From: Bradyrhizobium sp. CCBAU 53351
Lineage (GTDB): Bacteria > Pseudomonadota > Alphaproteobacteria > Rhizobiales > Xanthobacteraceae
Reading direction: 5' to 3'
DNA length: 64,000 bases
Assembly: GCF_015291745.1 (NCBI RefSeq)
Contig: NZ_CP030059.1
Coordinates: 1,143,501 to 1,207,500 of the forward strand
Shown: positions 1,903 through 35,264 of the stretch, in pieces
Layout of the letters: each line of letters starts with the position of its first letter
How positions within the stretch are numbered: position 1 is the stretch's first letter
Notes under the pieces: generated by a model
What the model was told of the DNA's origin: nothing
Database searches by the model: none
Seen by the model: the letters and a program-made list of their open reading frames with translations, nothing else
Translations under genes and position numbers: made by a program

Positions 1903-3651
<1,749 letters not shown>

Positions 3652-3948
3652 TTAGGCCAGAACGCCCATGATGTCCGACTCCTTCATGATCAGGAGGTCT
3701 TCGTTGTCGATCTTGACCTCGGTGCCCGACCACTTGCCGAACAGCACGCGGTCGCCGACCTTGAGGTCGATGGGGACCAGCTTGCCGGCCTCGTCACGGC
3801 CGCCGGGGCCGACGGCGACGATTTCGCCCTGGGACGGCTTTTCCTTGGCGGTGTCGGGAATGATGATGCCGCCCTTGGTCTTTTCCTCGGCGTCGATACG
3901 TTTGACCACGACACGGTCATGCAGCGGACGAAATTTGGATTTAGCCAT
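3652..3948 (-). CDS. groES: Co-chaperonin GroES (10 kDa)
   Basis: 98 aa, the standard length. Begins [17 protein letters not shown], has the mobile-loop region [18 protein letters not shown] (residues 21-38) that docks on GroEL, and ends SDIMGVLA. It forms the heptameric lid of GroEL. First gene of the operon, 93 bp downstream of a CIRCE operator and a promoter with a perfect TTGACA -35 box. Confidence 0.98.
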
Positions 3949-4041
3949 GACGTTTCCCTTTGGAGGCTCGCTTCGGAAGGTGTGGAAGTGGGTGGGGCGG
4001 CACTTCCGTCCGGCCCCTATCCCGAGGATCGAACGGCGCGC

Positions 4042-4068
4042 TTAGCAATCGGGCTTTCCGAGTGCTAA
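4042..4068 (-). promoter_or_regulatory. CIRCE operator (HrcA site)
   Basis: On the plus strand TTAGCAATC - N9 - GAGTGCTAA. The consensus is TTAGCACTC-N9-GAGTGCTAA, so one arm is perfect and the other has a single mismatch (A for C at 4048). CIRCE is bound by the heat-shock repressor HrcA. It lies just downstream of the -10 element of the groES promoter, where a bound repressor would block initiation. Confidence 0.93.
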
Positions 4069-4079
4069 TAGTGGGCCCG

Positions 4080-4108
4080 GAAATATGGCTTGGCCGCGAT
4101 CCTGTCAA
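4080..4108 (-). promoter_or_regulatory. Promoter of groES-groEL
   Basis: Read on the minus strand: TTGACA (4108-4103), 17-bp spacer, TATTTC (4085-4080). The -35 is a perfect consensus; the -10 is weak. The predicted start falls about 10 bp upstream of, or at the edge of, the CIRCE operator. This is a housekeeping sigma-type promoter rather than an obvious RpoH one. Confidence 0.75.
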
Positions 4109-4264
4109 GCAAAGGTGGTTAAGCGGTTGTTGAGGCGGATATAGGATGTTGGCATTGGAAACTTGTTCGGGGCACAGACGTATCAAAGGACGTCATTGCT
4201 CCGGCAGCTTTTTTGCGCTTGGCTGCGGGAGGGGTGCGGCCATGGTTTTGTCCGGGGGAATGCC

Positions 4265-26684: not shown

Positions 26685-27695
26685 ATGGCAATGCGATTGC
26701 TGCGCGGCGTTTTGAGCGGCGTGAAATGGGCCCTGTGTGCGGTCGGCGGCGTGGCGCTGATCCTGACCGCGATGATCGCAACCCCGCTGCAGCGGCCGCC
26801 CGAGATGCGCTCGGTCTCGGAATCGACCAAGGGCATCGACTGGTCCACGCTGCCGCAACTCGAGCGCTTCCAGGCACGCGACGGCACCTGGATCGGTTAT
26901 CGCCATTACGCACCGATCGGCGCTGCGGCAGGCCGCGGCGCGATCTTCATCCATGGCTCCTCCGGCTCCAGCGGCACCGTCAACCACGCGCTGACCCACG
27001 CGATGTCAGCGCATGGGGTGGAGACCTGGGCGCTCGACATCCGCGGCCATGGCGGCTCCGGCACTCGCGGCGATATCGGCTATGTCGGCCAGCTCGAGGA
27101 CGATCTCGTCGATTTCGTCGCGGAAGTTCGCAAGACCGCGCCGGATCTGCCGCTCACTTTGGTCGGCCATTCCGCCGGCGCCGGCTTCTCGCTGCGCGTC
27201 GCCGCGACCCCGATCATGCAGGACATGTTCGTGCGCACCGTGCTGCTCGCGCCCTATCTCGGCTATGACGCACCGACCAACCGGCCCAATGCGGGCGGCT
27301 GGGCCAATTTCAACGTCCCGCGCTTCTTCGGCCTGAGCGCGCTGCGCAAGCTCGGCATCGACTGCTGCGCGCAGCTTCCGGTGCTGGCGCTGGCGGTGCC
27401 GGCGACCTCGGCGAAATATCTCACCTCGATCTATTCCGATCGCCTGACCCGCAATTTCTCAACGCGCGGCTATCGCATAGATCTTCCCTTGACGACGCGC
27501 CCGATCACGATCTTTGGCGGCGCCGAGGACGAGATGATGATCTCGGACAAATACGCGGAAGCCGTGCACGCGGTGAAGCCGTCGGTCGACGTCAAGATCA
27601 TCGACGGCATCAACCACATGGGCATCGTCACCAATCCCAAGGCGATCTCCGTCATCGCCGAGGACGTCGCAACGCGCGGAGCAGGCCAGTCATGA
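26685..27695 (+). CDS. Membrane-anchored alpha/beta hydrolase
   Basis: 336 aa from the ATG at 26685, with GGGAG 8 nt upstream. One N-terminal transmembrane helix (about 12-33), then the hydrolase: oxyanion loop IFIHGSSGSSG (88-97), LDIRGHGGSG (117-126), nucleophile elbow LVGHSAGAG (Ser163), and a C-terminal 'FGGAEDEMM ... DGINHMGIV' with acid and His. Lysophospholipase/esterase-like; substrate unknown. First gene of a three-gene operon; ATGA overlap with the next gene. Confidence 0.9.
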   Translation: MAMRLLRGVLSGVKWALCAVGGVALILTAMIATPLQRPPEMRSVSESTKGIDWSTLPQLERFQARDGTWIGYRHYAPIGAAAGRGAIFIHGSSGSSGTVNHALTHAMSAHGVETWALDIRGHGGSGTRGDIGYVGQLEDDLVDFVAEVRKTAPDLPLTLVGHSAGAGFSLRVAATPIMQDMFVRTVLLAPYLGYDAPTNRPNAGGWANFNVPRFFGLSALRKLGIDCCAQLPVLALAVPATSAKYLTSIYSDRLTRNFSTRGYRIDLPLTTRPITIFGGAEDEMMISDKYAEAVHAVKPSVDVKIIDGINHMGIVTNPKAISVIAEDVATRGAGQS

Positions 27696-28246
27696 TCGAC
27701 AGCAAGGAGGCGTCCGCGGCGCTGGCCGATATCGACGACATCGTCCAGCGCCTGAAGCAATCGCAGCTCTACGAGCTTGCGAGCCTGGCTGCGGTGTGGT
27801 GGGGCGTGCTGGTGTTCGCGGCCAATCTCGTCACCTGGCTGTGGCCGGCCTATGCGGGCTACGCCTGGGTCGCCACCGATGTCGTGGGCGTCGGCGGTCT
27901 CGTCGTGCTGCGTGTGCTCAATCCGCCGCAACATCCCAACGGCAGCGCGGCCGGCATCAGGATGCTCCTGGTGCTCGCGCTGTTCTTCGCCTTCGGCTAC
28001 CTCTGCACTGACGTGATCGGCCATTTCGGCCCGCGCCAGCTCGGCACGTTCTGGCCGCTCTATTTCATGCTGTTCTATACGATGGCGGGCCTGTGGTTCG
28101 GCCATGCCTTCCTGGCGATCGGCCTCGGCATTTCCGCGCTGACCCTGATCGGCTTCTTCTACATCGGTGAAGCCTTCCCGCTCTGGATGGCCTTCGTCAA
28201 CGGCGGCGGCCTGATCCTCGGCGGCGTCTGGATGCGGCGGATCTAG
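27692..28246 (+). CDS. Membrane protein of unknown function
   Basis: 184 aa, start overlapping the previous stop by 4 bp. Short soluble head (MIDSKEASAALADIDDIVQRLK) followed by about five transmembrane segments: residues 32-50, 56-74, 91-108, 119-140 and 142-175 (the last probably two). No known motif. Its place between a membrane-anchored hydrolase and a small DNA-binding protein suggests a signal-coupled operon in which it may be the sensor (inference). Confidence 0.85.
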   Translation: MIDSKEASAALADIDDIVQRLKQSQLYELASLAAVWWGVLVFAANLVTWLWPAYAGYAWVATDVVGVGGLVVLRVLNPPQHPNGSAAGIRMLLVLALFFAFGYLCTDVIGHFGPRQLGTFWPLYFMLFYTMAGLWFGHAFLAIGLGISALTLIGFFYIGEAFPLWMAFVNGGGLILGGVWMRRI

Positions 28247-28250
28247 CGCG

Positions 28251-28553
28251 ATGGCCGAGCTCGACGACATCATCCACCAGCCGCTGCGCCTGAAGATCAT
28301 GGCGGCGCTGAATGCGCTGCCGGTGGGCACGGGCCTGGAATTCGCGCGGCTGAAGAAGCTGACCGGCGCGACCGACGGCAATTTAGGGGCGCATATCGAG
28401 ACGCTGGCGAAGGCGGGGTACGTTTCGGTGGAGAAAGCGTTCGTGGGCAAGAAGCCGCAGACGACGGTGACGGCGACGGCGGCAGGGCGCGGGGCGTTCG
28501 CGCGGCATGTGGCGACGTTGCAGGAGATTATTGCGGGGAGGCAGGCTACATAG
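28251..28553 (+). CDS. Winged-helix transcriptional regulator
   Basis: 100 aa, 4 bp after the previous stop. MarR/PadR-like winged helix: 'DDIIHQPLRLKIMAALNAL' (helix 1), 'LEFARLKKLTGATDGNLGAHIETL' (helix-turn-helix, about 30-53), then the wing 'GYVSVEKAFVGKKPQTTVT'. Proteins of this type are dimeric repressors; the small size and last-gene position fit autoregulation through the two palindromes at 26628-26654. Confidence 0.88.
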   Translation: MAELDDIIHQPLRLKIMAALNALPVGTGLEFARLKKLTGATDGNLGAHIETLAKAGYVSVEKAFVGKKPQTTVTATAAGRGAFARHVATLQEIIAGRQAT

Positions 28554-28679
28554 AACCCCATTCTCCCGCAAGGGGAGAGGGCATAGCGAGTGGCACGCGA
28601 TCCCCGGCAAGCCCCTCTTGCCCCCGGGCGTGACGTAGAGAGGGGTTACACCGCCCAACGAGAAAACCTGGTTACCCCT

Positions 28680-28701
28680 GGCGCCGACCAAAGTCGGTGC
28701 C
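28680..28701. other. Stem-loop before the PIN operon
   Basis: GGCGCCGAC / GTCGGTGCC with a CAAA loop (9-bp stem, one G-T pair). It is 80 bp upstream of the 259-aa gene, in the intergenic region that also holds a CTCCCgcaaGGGGAG hairpin at about 28565-28580. Purpose unknown. Confidence 0.45.
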
Positions 28702-28780
28702 CGCGTTGGTAGTATTGTTAGGGTCGCTCTGCTTTACTGGAGTCCTACAGGTCCTCCGGCCGAAATCCTGAGTTCTCCCG

Positions 28781-29560
28781 ATGGCGATGCCCCGCAAGCG
28801 CAAAAGTCGAATCGATGGCACCGAGCATTATCGGTTCAAAATCGACGCCTACACCCCAGCGACGATTCCGATGGCGCGCCTCGCTCAATACATGGAGCAG
28901 TTGGCGGCGCTTCTCGGTGAGCGCGATGGCGTACACTTTCGCGGCCTCACCAAGGGCAGCACCGTCCTAAATGCGCGCGTTGATCGAGAGGCCGCACCCA
29001 AGGTTCACGACCGGGTCGTCGCGGTGCGAGCTGGAGACGCGAGCGTTGAAGCCCAGCGGGCTTTCAACGCATTGAACACGCTCCTCCGGGCGGACAACGC
29101 TGTCGGAGTCCTGCGCGATGCAGCGCCGCGTGGCGCGGTCGTCATCCGCTTTCCCGGCCGCGATCAGACGGAAGAAAAGTTCATCGTTCGTCAGCAAGGC
29201 TCGATTGACGGTTTTGTCACCGGGATTCGCGGCAGGGATGCGACCATCCACGTCACGTTGCAGTCCGAAGGCAGGCAGATCAGCGGCTGCGAGACCACGC
29301 GCGCCGTCGCAAAGCAGCTCGGGGCAAAGCTCTTCGAACCTGTGAGGCTCTTCGGAAAGGGCCGCTGGGTGCGCGATGGCGATGGCGAGTGGACGCTCGA
29401 ACATTTCCGCATCGAGAGCTTCGAGGCGCTTCAGGACAGCTCATTGACCGATGCCCTCGCGACACTTCGCGACATCCCAACGGAATGGGGTGACGACGCT
29501 TACAACGAGCTGGTCGCAGGACGGAAGGGACCGGGGAGCAACAAGAATGGTGGTCATTGA
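28781..29560 (+). CDS. Unknown protein, partner of a PIN nuclease
   Basis: 259 aa (ATG 28781, or 28787). It has an Arg/Lys-rich opening (PRKRKSRIDG). The N-terminal half is mixed alpha/beta with a helical 'ASVEAQRAFNALNTLLRADN'. A C-terminal beta-rich module (about 135-225) contains FIVRQQGSIDGFVTGI, TLQSEGRQISGCETT and LFEPVRLFGKGRWVRDGDG. No family I can name. It overlaps the PIN gene by 14 bp, so the two are translated together; a toxin-neutralising or RNA-targeting role for it is only inference. It starts the accessory stretch upstream of the KAP gene. Confidence 0.85.
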   Translation: MAMPRKRKSRIDGTEHYRFKIDAYTPATIPMARLAQYMEQLAALLGERDGVHFRGLTKGSTVLNARVDREAAPKVHDRVVAVRAGDASVEAQRAFNALNTLLRADNAVGVLRDAAPRGAVVIRFPGRDQTEEKFIVRQQGSIDGFVTGIRGRDATIHVTLQSEGRQISGCETTRAVAKQLGAKLFEPVRLFGKGRWVRDGDGEWTLEHFRIESFEALQDSSLTDALATLRDIPTEWGDDAYNELVAGRKGPGSNKNGGH

Positions 29561-30110
29561 CTCCACCAATCTGCTGCTGCTTCTCCGGCCAGGGACCCCC
29601 GTACCGGGTGGTCGCGACGGCAAGGCTGTAGAACGCGCAAAGGAGCGCATCGAATACTTGGTGCATCGGTTGAGCAAGGCGAAGGCGCGAATCATCATCC
29701 CGGCGCCAGCGCTCAGCGAGGCTCTCGTGAAGGCGGGAGCCGCCGCGTCGCTGCAGATCGTCGAGGAGCTGCAGAAACACGCCGTGTTCAGCATCGAGCC
29801 TTTCGACACGCGCGCCGCGCTGGAGGCGTCGGCGATGTCACGCGCGGCCCTCGCTGGTGGCAACAAGAAAGGGAAATCAACGGCACCATGGCAAAAGGTG
29901 AAGTTTGATCGTCAGATCGTCGCCATAGCCAAGGTCCACGGCGCGACTGAAATCTATTCGGACGATGACGACGTCGTGGCTCTCGGCGAGCAAGCTAAGA
30001 TCAAGGTCATTCGATTGGCGGCCCTGCCACTGCCGCCTGAAAAAGATCAGCTCGACTTCTTGCTGGAGCCCGACGCCGACGTAGAAGCCACGTCTAGCGA
30101 TGAAGGCTGA
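29547..30110 (+). CDS. PIN-domain nuclease
   Basis: 187 aa from the ATG at 29547, with GGGGAG 8 nt upstream inside the end of the previous gene. PIN fold acidic residues are in place: Asp5 in VIDSTNLLLLL, Glu58 in PAPALSEAL, Asp121 in KFDRQIVAIAKVHG, and Asp139-142 in IYSDDDDVVALG. PIN proteins cut RNA, often as VapC toxins. This one is longer than VapC (about 130 aa) because of a Lys/Gly-rich insert near 105-118 and a 25-residue acidic tail. Partner is the upstream 259-aa protein rather than a small VapB-type antitoxin. Confidence 0.88.
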   Translation: MVVIDSTNLLLLLRPGTPVPGGRDGKAVERAKERIEYLVHRLSKAKARIIIPAPALSEALVKAGAAASLQIVEELQKHAVFSIEPFDTRAALEASAMSRAALAGGNKKGKSTAPWQKVKFDRQIVAIAKVHGATEIYSDDDDVVALGEQAKIKVIRLAALPLPPEKDQLDFLLEPDADVEATSSDEG

Positions 30111-30169
30111 CGCGGTCGCTTCAACAAAGTGTTTAAGCAAAGCCAGCACGACAATCGAGACCGAGACGC

Positions 30170-31240
30170 ATGACCGATAGCGGCGAAGCACAGCTCGACA
30201 CCGATATTATCTTTATCGACACGGAAACCTTTGTTCGGGAAAAGTTTGACTGGAATTCCGTTGCGTTCTCTCGGCTCAAGGAGCTTGTCAAGGCAGGGCA
30301 TCTGCGCGTTTTGACAACGAGCATTACAAAAAAGGAGGTGGCAAGAAAGCAACAGGAGGCGCTGGATAACGCGGCAAAATCTGTAAAAAAGCACGAAGTC
30401 ATACTCGGCCAATTAGGGGGCTCGGTAGCGACAGAAGCAATCAACTCGCCAAGCGCCGCAGCCGCATTGGAGGCGTTGTTCGAGAAGTTCCTCGAAGATG
30501 TCAAAGCGCGCGAGATTCCACTGCAAGCTGACCTCGAAAAACTGTTCGACGATTACTTTGCACAGACGCCACCATTTAGCGGTGGGAAAAAATCAGAATT
30601 CCCCGACGCGGTCGTTCTAATATCTCTGCGCAAATGGAGAGCGGACCGTCATCAGAAGATCTACGTAATTTCCGGCGATCCAGACATGAAGGCCGCTTGT
30701 GGCGAAGGCAGTGACTTGCTCCACGTCGAGCGGCTTGCTGACGTAATCTCAATGGCGACAGTTACAAAGCAGGTCCATGACGATCTGCTGAAGTTTCTTG
30801 CTGAAAGTGAACATCTTGCGTTGAGCCTGTCAGACGAACTCATGGGTAGTAAGGTCAAAATTACAAAGTTGTACTGGATGGACGATATTGATGACGCATC
30901 CGGAATAGTCAGGGACGTGACGGATTTTAGCATCATCCATTTAAACGTAATCTCGAAAGAGCAGAACGCCTTTGAATGCGAGATTGAAGTCGAAATCTGC
31001 CTTAATATCGAATTCACCGTCGAAGTCAGCAGACGATCCGGGTTCGAGGACTACGACCCCAGTTACACGCTTTATGAGACCGAGCCCGTAATCTTATACT
31101 TGTACCCAGTCGTCGTTGTTCGTTTCGACACAGCAAAACCGAACGACACCGAAATCGAGTCGGTTTATGTCAGTTCCGATATTGAGGTTGAGGCGGGCGA
31201 CGTTGATGTGATTAAAAACGCCCATCGCCATCGGTATTAA
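30170..31240 (+). CDS. Larger PIN-like (DUF4935) protein
   Basis: 356 aa, 59 bp after the PIN gene. N-terminal PIN-like domain (about 10-190): IIFIDTETF (Asp17), TKKEVARKQQ (Glu56), SGGKKSEFPDAVVLISL (Asp146) and KIYVISGDPDMKAA (Asp170, Asp172), the pattern of the DUF4935/PIN_16 group. The C-terminal half is a separate acidic beta-rich domain (about 230-350) I do not recognise. Visibly lower GC than the core genes. Possibly an RNase effector whose activity is set by the C-terminal domain (inference). Confidence 0.85.
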   Translation: MTDSGEAQLDTDIIFIDTETFVREKFDWNSVAFSRLKELVKAGHLRVLTTSITKKEVARKQQEALDNAAKSVKKHEVILGQLGGSVATEAINSPSAAAALEALFEKFLEDVKAREIPLQADLEKLFDDYFAQTPPFSGGKKSEFPDAVVLISLRKWRADRHQKIYVISGDPDMKAACGEGSDLLHVERLADVISMATVTKQVHDDLLKFLAESEHLALSLSDELMGSKVKITKLYWMDDIDDASGIVRDVTDFSIIHLNVISKEQNAFECEIEVEICLNIEFTVEVSRRSGFEDYDPSYTLYETEPVILYLYPVVVVRFDTAKPNDTEIESVYVSSDIEVEAGDVDVIKNAHRHRY

Positions 31241-31331
31241 AGCGACGAGGAACGCTAAATAGCTGTTCGGCCGCGTTCTGCTACCATCGGCGGCATGAGC
31301 CCGCACCATCAATGACACTTCCAAGCTGGTA

Positions 31332-31400
31332 ATTACGGCGACAATGCACTAACTGGCATCAACTGCGCCGGCTTGGAAATTAGTGCACTGTCACCGTAAT
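31332..31400. repeat. 21-bp imperfect inverted repeat between convergent genes
   Basis: Left arm ATTACGGCGACAATGCACTAA (31332-31352, 21 bases, written here as two parts: ATTACGGCGACA and ATGCACTAA). The right arm at 31380-31400 is its reverse complement at 19 of 21 positions. Loop of 27 nt. A similar motif occurs next to REP-associated IS200-like transposases in other proteobacteria (memory only). It lies between the stops of the DUF4935-like and KAP genes and could also terminate both. Confidence 0.75.
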
Positions 31401-31457
31401 AGCTGTAATGGCTGATCGTGGCGCCGCAAACTGACGGCTCGAGCCGGCCAGGCGAGA

Positions 31458-33410
31458 TCAACTCTCTTCTGCCTCTTCTTCCTCATCTGTTGATCGCAGA
31501 AACGGTGCAAGGTTCTGTGACGCGCGTTGCCTTATTCGGAACCGAGACAAAGGAGGCGAATTCTCAGCCGCTAACATTAATTCCGCCGCCACGGCATTCA
31601 GCCAGTCGCACTCCGGCTCCAATTTATTTCTAAGCAAGCCTGTTTCATAACGAAATTTAAGTGCCGAGAAGACCGTGCCCTGAGCATCGGGCGACAGGCT
31701 CAGCAATGCATCAACAAACTTCTTAGCCGGGATGGCTGCTAAGATTGGAGTATCCCAATAGATCGCAGCTTGTACATTATTTGCGGTAATGAGCTGGAGG
31801 AATGAAGAGGGGTCAACTTTCATCTTCTCCAATAATGCCTCGCCATGTACAGGTAGGCGCTTGGCTTTCACCTGTTCAACGAGCTGTTCGTAGCGCGCAA
31901 AAATCGTTCGAAATTCCGGAGTGTCGGCCAAGGTTACTTGATGATCGAAGCAATAGACGCTGCCTGATTTGAGTAGGTCGCGTAGGTTCCTTTCTTCGAT
32001 TAATTCGGCCTTCATGAGGTCATCCAGACAGTTCTTGCACTCTTCTACGATGATGCTTTTTGGAAGACTGATTGCATGTATCTCGCTGAAGAAAAGTCGA
32101 AGACCAAAGATGTGGAGCATCTCATCGTTGTTGCCAAATTTTTTTTCCCGGAATTGGTTTTCGATCTTTGAGATCGCCTCCAAGTACTGCTCGTCTGTGA
32201 CCTCCCATCCCTTCCATGCCGTGAGCCATGGTGGTTCGCTTTTGGACGTGAAGTATCGACTGTTGTCGATCGATCTGCGTGCGTCGGCTTGATCGAGCCA
32301 GCCCTCAAACAGCATAGTTTCCAGTTGTTTCAAGTTCAGGGGGGACTTGCTTACTCCAGTCATGGGGTACTGCGTAGCAATTCTCCCAGCGACGCTAGTG
32401 TCCTTCGAGTCGCGCTCCCTCATCAGGCGGACGACCTCGCTGACAGCCAACGAGGGAAACTCATCTCTGCTGATGCGACCTGCTCGGACTTCGATGGCGA
32501 GCATGAGGACTACCTTGAATAGCGCTTCCATTGCATGATTGTTCGACCAGTGTTCTTCGCTCAAGCATCCTGCCAATCTCTCGTAGTCCCATAATGCATG
32601 CTTCAGCAGGCGTAAGTTGTTGGTGTTCGATCTGATGTGAATATCTAACGCGGCGTCCAATTGAGTTTGCAGAAGCGATTTGGCGCGCTCGTGCCGAATG
32701 TCTACGAGGAAAGATTTCAGCGCTTCTTCAGCCGAGGATCTGACTTCGAGTGTCTGACCGATCAATTTCTCTTTGATTAGCGTGTAGCTCTTTGCGCCAA
32801 TGTTCGTTTCAATTTGGCTCTCGGTCTCTTGATCGCTCTTGTTTTGCGAGTGGAGCTTTTCGCGCGCATACAGCTCAGCCTCATTTGCAATTATAATCGT
32901 CTTGAAAGAGTTGTGTTCAACAAAGCTGTTTATGTAGCCGAGAACATCCGAAATGGGCATCGAACATCGTTCTAGATCGTCGAAAACTAGAAGAGCGTCA
33001 GAGGGGGTTTTTAGGTATTTTGAAAGATCAATGTCGGGAATTGATGAATCCACTTTCAGTTCGTCTTTGCCGTCTAGATCTATCTTTAGTCCTGCCTTGA
33101 GGCTTCCTTTCACAATGTTCCAGCCGATCTTCATCGTTTTGGAAGAGAGTACTGGGTGAAGCTGTCGAAAAAGTTCATCATCTACTTCTTGGGTTGAGGT
33201 CATCCCATATAGGGAAACACGCAAAGGTCGAAACGGCCGGTCTTCTTTTTGGGCTTGATCTTTCGCTTCATCAATGAATCGCTTTACGAGTGTCGTTTTT
33301 CCGGCGCCCCACGGCCCGGTAATAAGAACCGCGAAATCAAATTTGTTGGCAGGCTCGCAGTAGTAGCGAAGATAATTCACTACGTGCTCGTTCGGTCCTT
33401 GCGTACTCAC
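31458..33410 (-). CDS. KAP-type P-loop NTPase
   Basis: 650 aa from the GTG at 33410, with AGAGGAAG 7 nt upstream. N-terminal NTPase: Walker A GPWGAGKTTL (32-41), Walker B LLVFDDLER (140-148) and 'TIIIANEAEL' (sensor region). This matches the KAP family, STAND-like ATPases often found in phage-defence and mobile islands. The rest is mostly helical with an acidic end (STDEEEEAEES). No transmembrane segment is evident, which is unusual for classical KAP proteins. GC is visibly below the neighbours, suggesting transfer. Convergent with the PIN-like gene. Confidence 0.88.
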   Translation of the reverse strand: MSTQGPNEHVVNYLRYYCEPANKFDFAVLITGPWGAGKTTLVKRFIDEAKDQAQKEDRPFRPLRVSLYGMTSTQEVDDELFRQLHPVLSSKTMKIGWNIVKGSLKAGLKIDLDGKDELKVDSSIPDIDLSKYLKTPSDALLVFDDLERCSMPISDVLGYINSFVEHNSFKTIIIANEAELYAREKLHSQNKSDQETESQIETNIGAKSYTLIKEKLIGQTLEVRSSAEEALKSFLVDIRHERAKSLLQTQLDAALDIHIRSNTNNLRLLKHALWDYERLAGCLSEEHWSNNHAMEALFKVVLMLAIEVRAGRISRDEFPSLAVSEVVRLMRERDSKDTSVAGRIATQYPMTGVSKSPLNLKQLETMLFEGWLDQADARRSIDNSRYFTSKSEPPWLTAWKGWEVTDEQYLEAISKIENQFREKKFGNNDEMLHIFGLRLFFSEIHAISLPKSIIVEECKNCLDDLMKAELIEERNLRDLLKSGSVYCFDHQVTLADTPEFRTIFARYEQLVEQVKAKRLPVHGEALLEKMKVDPSSFLQLITANNVQAAIYWDTPILAAIPAKKFVDALLSLSPDAQGTVFSALKFRYETGLLRNKLEPECDWLNAVAAELMLAAENSPPLSRFRIRQRASQNLAPFLRSTDEEEEAEES

Positions 33411-33588
33411 TTCTAGCTTCCTCTCTCTTCTGACTCAGGCGATGCCTGTTCGCGGCGTTGGGCGAGGGTGGCTATGACCGCATCAAGGTGCGGCCGGTGT
33501 GGTTCGACAAATCGTCAATCGGTAGTAGTTTCGAGATGAGACGTTCGTGGCGAATGGCTATGATCCTGACGCCATGCAGGAGGGAACG

Positions 33589-33822
33589 ATGCCGGAAATA
33601 AGCAAGCCAGGTAAGTCGGTTTATATGGAGGTCGGTGTTTGGTGGGATCCGGATCAGGGCCATATTCACGTAACTGCGAAGAATGTCCCAGGCTTCCATA
33701 CGACGGTCAGTCCGGATGCCTCTAGTAAGCGCGGGCATCCCAACCTATTCATGAAGCTGGCGAAAGTTCTTCGCGATAACGGTGCGCCACACCCCGAGAT
33801 TAAGGAGCAGACCGATATCTAG
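33589..33822 (+). CDS. Small conserved protein, unknown function
   Basis: 77 aa from the ATG at 33589, with AGGAGG 5 nt upstream; an in-frame ATG lies earlier at 33547. 'SVYMEVGVWWDPDQGHIHVT' followed by a short Gly/Phe/His segment and 'RGHPNLFMKLAKVLRDNGAP' give a beta-hairpin plus helix plan. Resembles small unannotated proteins seen in rhizobia and acetic acid bacteria (from memory). Divergent from the KAP gene and separated from it by 178 bp; membership in the accessory locus is uncertain. Confidence 0.78.
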   Translation: MPEISKPGKSVYMEVGVWWDPDQGHIHVTAKNVPGFHTTVSPDASSKRGHPNLFMKLAKVLRDNGAPHPEIKEQTDI

Positions 33823-33863
33823 GCTCCCAAGGGGGCTCGGTGAACGGCTGCCTCTCGCGGGAT

Positions 33864-33895
33864 GGCTTGCGGCTTCGCCGCGCCCCGGAATGACG
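33864..33895. repeat. Fragment of a CGTCATTCCGGGG-type repeat
   Basis: On the plus strand GGCTTGCGGCTTCGCCGCG then CCCCGGAATGACG. It contains the hairpin GCGGCttcGCCGC and ends with the outer CCGGAATGACG arm also seen, inverted, at 55706. Only one half of the usual element is present. It marks the edge between the accessory stretch and purD. Confidence 0.6.
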
Positions 33896-33980
33896 GGGGA
33901 ATCGGATGTCGCACCCCTTCACACCCACCCCGATTCGTGCGACGTCCGGCCCCAGCAAAACCCCTCATCCCGAGCCCTCG

Positions 33981-35264
33981 ATGCACATTCTCCTCCTCGG
34001 TTCCGGCGGCCGCGAACATGCTCTGGCGTGGAAGATCGCAGCCTCCCCCCTGGTGACCAAATTCTGGTGCGCGCCCGGCAATGCCGGCATCGCGCAGGAG
34101 GCCGAATGCGTGGCGCTCGATGTGGCCGACCATGCGGCGGTGATCGATTTCTGCAGGCAGAACAAGGTCGAGCTGGTGGTGGTCGGGCCGGAGACGCCGC
34201 TGGCGGCCGGCATCGTCGACGACCTCACGGCGGCCGGTATCAAGGCGTTCGGGCCGAACAAAATTCCGGCCCAGCTCGAAAGCTCCAAGGGGTTCACCAA
34301 GGCGCTGTGCACCGAGTTCGGCATTCCCACAGGCGCCTACAAGCGGTTCACCAACGCCAAGGACGCGCGAGACTACGTCACCAGCCAGGGCGCGCCGATC
34401 GTGGTGAAGGCCGACGGGCTTGCCGCCGGCAAGGGCGTGGTCGTCGCCAAGACCGTGCGCGAGGCGGAGGACGCCATCGCCATGATGTTCGAGGGCGCCT
34501 TTGGCGAGGCCGGCGCGGAGGTCGTGATCGAGGAGTTTCTGCCCGGCCGCGAGATCAGCTTCTTCGCGCTGTGCGACGGCGAGACCGCGATTCCGCTGGC
34601 CTCCGCGCAGGACCACAAGCGCGTGTTCGACCACGACGTCGGCCCGAACACCGGCGGCATGGGCGCCTATTCGCCGACGCCGCTGGTGACGCCTGCCGTC
34701 CACGACGCCATCATGGCCAAGATCATCCTGCCGACGGTCGCGGGCATGAAGCAGCGCGGCACGCCGTTCCGCGGCATCCTCTATGCCGGCATCATGCTGA
34801 CGACGCAGGGGCCAAAGCTGTTCGAGTTCAACGTCCGCTTCGGCGACCCCGAGTGCCAGGTGCTGATGCTGCGCATGATGAGCGACATCGTGCCGGCGCT
34901 GCTGGCCTCCTGTGATGGCCAGCTGAAGAATTTCGATCTGCGCTGGCACAAGGAAGCCGCGATCACCGTGGTGATGGCGGCACAAGGCTATCCCGGCGAC
35001 TACCAGAAGGGCACGCGCATCGAGGGGCTCGATGACGCAGCCAAGGTCGACAATGTCGAGATCTTCCACGCGGGGACGGTGGCCAAGGACGGGGCGATCC
35101 TGGCCAATGGCGGCCGCGTGCTCAATGTCTGCGCGTTGGGTGCGACCGTGACCGAAGCGCAGGCCCGCGCCTACCAGGCCGTCGACCGCATCAAATGGCC
35201 GGAAGGCTTCTGCCGCCGCGACATCGGCTGGCAGGCGGTGGAGGCGGAGAAGGCCAAGGGCTGA
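33981..35264 (+). CDS. purD: Phosphoribosylamine-glycine ligase PurD
   Basis: 427 aa from the ATG at 33981 ([19 protein letters not shown]). ATP-grasp enzyme, second step of purine synthesis. GSGGREHA (8-15), GPETPLAAG (near 67), the ATP-grasp loop [15 protein letters not shown] (about 140-154), and [11 protein letters not shown] (about 286-296) with the metal-binding Glu/Asn. Length is standard. Single gene; the upstream sequence is a repeat fragment, so the ribosome site is weak. Confidence 0.97.

Follow-up and report, generated by a model that had tools for sequence, protein, structure and literature searches.

What does a 259-amino-acid (aa) protein do when its gene runs directly into that of a PIN-domain ribonuclease (RNase)? 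The question is raised by a locus of Bradyrhizobium sp. CCBAU 53351, whose genome comprises 8.34 Mb in two contigs. In this bacterium, gene A codes for the 259-aa protein and gene B for the RNase (hereafter PIN), and both lie in a 64,000-nucleotide stretch of contig NZ_CP030059.1 (positions 1,143,501 to 1,207,500; the window). An initial annotation of the window had joined them to a third, PIN-like gene and had proposed that A targets or restrains the nuclease. The comparisons presented here reveal that A and PIN form a genuine module of two genes, inherited as one unit.

Linkage and damage of the A–PIN pair

Constant linkage to a PIN gene had been named in the initial annotation as the mark of a module, and this is what was found. 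When viral contigs were scanned with a PIN-only pattern, 39 loci were obtained, and A lay directly upstream in 39 of 39. Among 149 genomes of relatives, A was present in 10, the window's own included. With the PIN profile, 11 of 385 class genomes and 10 of 397 order genomes were matched (both sets containing the own genome); A stood directly upstream in 10 of the 11 class genomes (one of these ten being cut by a contig end), the remaining one being a contig edge, and in 10 of the 10 order genomes. The A profile, in turn, matched 11 of the 385 class genomes, ten of them in common with the PIN set and the eleventh holding a PIN stub.

With A as the seed, scans yielded 57 bacterial and 18 viral loci, partly overlapping the earlier set, and the pooled 164 loci were made non-redundant, leaving 119 groups. 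With "whole" meaning that a single frame covers at least 85% of the profile, both genes were whole in 99 of the 119. A was whole and PIN fragmented, partial or absent in 12 (including L078, although it lies near a contig end), and a whole PIN with a broken A was found in 0. Contig ends truncate six loci (in one of these PIN is whole and the cut falls in A), and two (L112 and L113) held a partial A without a PIN of this family. Counted as whole were the A of L106 and the PIN of L086, each without a short inner stretch, as well as the PIN of G419 and the A of G311, where a stop falls at the C-terminal end, past a nearly full frame. In L113 (positions 3072-4200) the partial A is followed by a different reading frame that looks PIN-like by eye, a possible partner swap.

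This one-sided damage is what a toxin and its neutraliser would leave, and together with the gene order it fits a PIN toxin whose loss has to precede that of its neutraliser A. The claim that A restrains the nuclease is favoured by the damage pattern. If breaks scale with gene length (0.416 per break), 12 against 0 has a probability of about 3e-5 by hand calculation, a figure that presumes independent events and no seeding bias.

Among 97 non-redundant whole pairs, distances between A proteins and between PIN proteins were correlated (r = 0.78; the highest of 500 permutations gave 0.14), and nearest neighbours were concordant in 62. Two A–PIN pairs (L038 and L040) lie about 12 kb apart on one IMG/VR contig. 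PIN starts between -14 and +41 bp from the A stop, with overlap in 66 of the 97 pairs. The overlap of 14 bp given in the initial annotation was confirmed in the window, the PIN start being taken as the ATG at 29547, and from it we infer translational coupling of A and PIN. A promoter scan of 28400-31500 returned no sigma-70-like site, and no tRNA was found in 27000-35000.

The two proteins and the genomes that carry them

The PIN protein exceeds the cut-off of Pfam PF01850 (27.8 bits against 23.6) and has the VapC fold. It had been credited with a full acidic set, and this holds in part: in a 72-row alignment, Asp5 is conserved in 71 of 72 rows (the other being a gap), E58 in 71 and both D121 and D140 in all 72, whereas D139 (46/72) and D142 (31/72) are unconserved. 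K119 and E93 are also invariant (72/72 each). PADLOC yielded only weak matches to PIN relatives, with PDC-M11A in 8 of 72 (best E value 7.9e-5). The PADLOC system PDC-M32 requires M32A plus M32B; PDC-M32B was absent from the 13 families matched by the 72 PIN proteins, and PDC-M32A was matched weakly among A relatives (5 of 80 to the most-matched model, best 4.2e-4).

In the case of A, structure modelling gave an N-terminal alpha/beta domain (about residues 15-124) and a predicted OB-fold C-terminal domain (about 134-216); the rows of the fold search span residues 136-221 and barely cover the N-terminal domain. No Pfam or PADLOC match was obtained for A at E <= 1, and its sole NCBIfam match was sub-threshold (E 0.09, 12.9 bits against 34). 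The view that A belongs to no nameable family stands for Pfam, but an unnamed PHROG family does match: residues 15-238 fit phrog_19868 (E 3.8e-49), and residues 2-177 of PIN fit phrog_21691 (E 1.2e-30). Both proteins were hence already known in phage data, in families without a PHROGs function; what is added here is the partnership of the two, which joins a pair of function-unknown families. Solved structures related to A by sequence were not found, the lowest E value being 0.34 for the profile and 0.092 for the E. coli homologue alone. A DUF6575 phage protein was the top match of the model in a viral library (E 1.2e-7), but kinship with A was rejected, since the template modelling (TM) score was 0.40 (<0.5) over 253 columns and the family, partially matched in 2 of 398 genomes, was too scarce for an alignment. 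DUF6575 is present in a phage-defence screen, according to the accessible text of that report (PMC9519451), and its relation to A is kept as a lead. A is widespread over many bacteria: at least 459 relatives were found, with 7,999 candidates scored.

The pair is phage and plasmid cargo. Of 50,697 phage records, two contain A. They belong to Ostro and Pacha_bin_1, Pseudomonas phages that resemble each other, and each has the pair directly after a CI-type repressor, in the same direction. The likeness to rexAB of lambda, which we take to occupy the counterpart of this place, is one of place only. Among 72,556 plasmid records A was found in seven, three of them alike; the five plasmid loci inspected have A followed by PIN or pieces of it. 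In E. coli, 32 of 5,426 genomes carry a copy of the pair of viral locus L048 at >=99% identity, annotated as "hypothetical protein" and "PIN domain-containing or VapC family protein". For one of the 32 the annotation was inspected: here the pair sits within a P22-like prophage, in its immI/sieA region, again a likeness to sieA in place only. One flank has the tailspike together with Arc-family genes and a gene for an antirepressor; the opposite flank holds hypothetical genes and an insertion sequence, beyond which lie genes for DNA transfer. In the two phages and in this prophage, the pair occupies an immunity region.

More generally, 46 viral and plasmid loci treated with a simple caller gave 119 upstream open reading frames (ORFs; 102 scanned) and 83 downstream (71 scanned). 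The 102 include six Peptidase_S24, six HTH_3, three Arc and two Mnt matches, tallied for the top 25 Pfam and PHROG families, where one repressor may count twice; other upstream ORFs match capsid, portal, terminase or tail families. These varied neighbours indicate that, as phage cargo, the pair occupies several kinds of site, immunity regions among them.

Proposed function and alternatives

We consider it about evenly balanced whether A–PIN is a toxin-antitoxin-like module, carried by temperate phages and plasmids, that protects the host cell from other phages. In such a scheme A would be made first, bind the PIN RNase and silence it. When a rival phage infects, the predicted OB-fold domain of A would meet nucleic acid or protein of the intruder and the hold of A on PIN would be lost. 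The released PIN would then cut host or phage RNA, perhaps tRNA or rRNA by analogy with VapC, halting growth and phage production.

Toxins of the PIN RNase type are very common, and most of their described partners are small DNA-binding antitoxins; VapB is one of these, with a DNA-binding domain of RHH, AbrB, Phd or HTH type. A–PIN resembles VapBC in that the second gene codes for a PIN RNase of VapC fold with conserved acidic residues, the partner gene comes first with a short overlap (all 97 pairs lie within 41 bp), and the distribution is mobile and sporadic. It differs in the PIN protein, which is longer at 187 aa (most VapC-type chains of the fold comparison have about 120-147), and in the partner: as the initial annotation had argued, A is unlike VapB, with 259 aa, an alpha/beta plus OB-fold model (the N-terminal domain barely covered) and no Pfam family.

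Unusual partners for PIN proteins have been reported elsewhere. For example, the accessible text on NetFlax describes PIN or VapC-like toxins neutralised by non-VapB antitoxins such as PanA, RHH_6, SpnP and others, so non-standard PIN partners were already known, although that text mentions an OB-fold partner 0 times (PMC10440598). Another example is PD-T4-10, in which, according to the accessible text, two genes overlap, the second is toxic, the first neutralises it and the outcome is abortive infection of T4; neither protein has a predicted function, however, and "PIN domain" is absent from the main text (PMC9519451). In the literature searched, mostly without subscription papers and without supplements, no description of the module, a possible tie to DS-5 (see below) aside, and no paper on a PIN plus OB-fold pair was found.

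Judging by its size, its OB fold and the placement of the pair in immunity regions, A may also sense some component of the incoming phage. A more specific proposal, put forward tentatively and rather doubtful as a whole, is that A is an OB-fold nucleic-acid sensor that holds a VapC-type RNase and, on phage entry, releases or aims it. The pair would then be a dedicated prophage immunity system that occupies sites of superinfection exclusion in unrelated temperate phages (behind cI, and in P22 immI/sieA) and has been taken up by bacterial defence hotspots. If this were true, a large OB-fold partner would be a new way of controlling a VapC-type RNase, and A–PIN an unlabelled phage-exclusion device. 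On present evidence, the pair is a new variant within the PIN toxin and effector theme, not a categorically new kind.

The main alternative reverses the role of A, making it a sensor and required activator: PIN would be idle alone and would be recruited or switched on by A once the OB domain of A has detected nucleic acid of a phage; the predicted OB fold suits such a sensor. The precedent is DS-5, an E. coli defence system that pairs a PIN RNase with another protein and in which, as far as the accessible text goes, both parts are needed, deletion of the partner leaves no unrestrained toxicity, and the two reportedly are no toxin-antitoxin pair (PMC13092281). A–PIN is likewise a two-protein PIN system that occurs in E. 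coli (the 32 genomes above), and the two may be the same family. The partner in DS-5 has DUF5830 plus an AcrIF4-like domain and could be compared with A by description only (PMC13092281). However, DUF5830 had no match in seven singly scanned relatives of A (the E. coli one included) or in the window's own genome, and it is absent among the matches listed (25 of 34 families) for 80 members of the A family. Nor does an activator by itself predict damage confined to PIN, though loss of a costly effector could yield the same pattern. An activator is possible, but we do not expect it.

Alternatively, A–PIN might be a plain addiction module without an anti-phage role, PIN being the toxin and A the antitoxin, so that cells losing the prophage or plasmid die. 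The plasmid and prophage locations, an overlap and gene order like those of type II toxin-antitoxin operons, and the damage pattern would all be accounted for. Positions beside CI-type repressors and in immI, and a chromosomal hotspot with defence-like cargo (described below), are nevertheless more expected of immunity genes, and A is far larger than usual antitoxins, which makes addiction by itself unlikely. A complex for RNA processing, with PIN trimming a specific RNA that A binds, for instance to control phage gene expression, would make use of the OB fold and the PIN active site; the sporadic presence noted above (10 of 149 relatives, 11 of 385 class genomes), the varied phage positions and the repeated loss of PIN are unlike an essential role, and we judge it very improbable.

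Neighbouring genes and the insertion site

Table 1. Features of the A–PIN locus (positions in the window).
Feature	Position	Strand	Remarks
Gene A	28781..29560	+	259-aa partner protein; phrog_19868 match; two-domain model
Gene B, PIN-domain RNase with VapC fold	29547..30110	+	187 aa, start ATG; PF01850; acidic-set alignment
Overlap of A stop and PIN start	29547..29560	+	14 bp; 66/97 non-redundant whole pairs overlap
PIN_12 protein, neighbour outside module	30170..31240	+	356 aa, 59 bp past PIN stop
KAP P-loop NTPase, neighbour outside module	31458..33410	-	PADLOC candidate PDC-S49
Whole inserted island	28545..33880		Between winged-helix gene and purD; comparison with ten relatives

The third gene had been called PIN-like, and its product does match Pfam PF16289 PIN_12 (90.8 bits, cut-off 32); its C-terminal half has no Pfam match. 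Its strand and its distance of 59 bp from PIN (30170-31240) were likewise as the initial annotation had given them, and these are what speaks for a single operon and system of A, PIN and PIN_12. This three-gene reading was rejected on the neighbour search, the G+C content and the distribution of the third gene, and is scarcely credible: PIN_12 was found in no other A–PIN locus among L001-L154 (some with short flanks), five relatives with a PIN_12 match lack A, and the G+C content differs.

In detail, a search of the ORFs of L001-L154 gave relatives of the PIN_12 and KAP proteins only in the loci of the window's own genome (some loci extending for under 1 kb past PIN). Matches to the PIN_12 protein occurred in six other genomes of the 149, nearly full-length in G018 (41% over residues 7-348) and partially in five; of the six, A is present only in G018, on a separate contig. 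The G+C content is about 62-63% for A and PIN, 47-53% for the PIN_12 and KAP genes and about 62-68% in the flanks, a contrast within the island that suggests separate arrivals of A–PIN and PIN_12/KAP. The PIN_12 gene is a chance neighbour outside the module.

The KAP NTPase is a strong match to PADLOC PDC-S49 (E 5.7e-201) and is read toward the PIN_12 gene. Between these two genes, at 31332-31400, lies an inverted repeat of 21 nt with arms 90% complementary and 27 nt apart, which presumably resembles a repetitive extragenic palindrome (REP)-type element; its arm has no other copy in the window at <=3 mismatches. An ORF of 91 aa at 33547-33822, adjoining purD, has no family match above cut-off and, being on the other strand and in another frame, may be due to chance.

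Comparison with ten relatives identified the whole island as an insertion. The site is nearly empty in four of them (L188, L194, L196 and L197, the last additionally without the three genes preceding the site), and it holds other cargo of 2 to 8 kb in the remaining six. A, PIN, PIN_12 and KAP had no match in the compared stretch of any of the ten. Ten of 31 listed cargo ORFs were chosen by eye; six of these proteins, from three relatives, match PADLOC at E <= 0.001, among them PDC-M41B (7.1e-105), DpdB (2.8e-15) and AbiJ (4.3e-9), and four have no match. The DpdB match represents DpdB/DrmC-like cargo. This comparison points to the site as a hotspot that sometimes receives defence-like genes.
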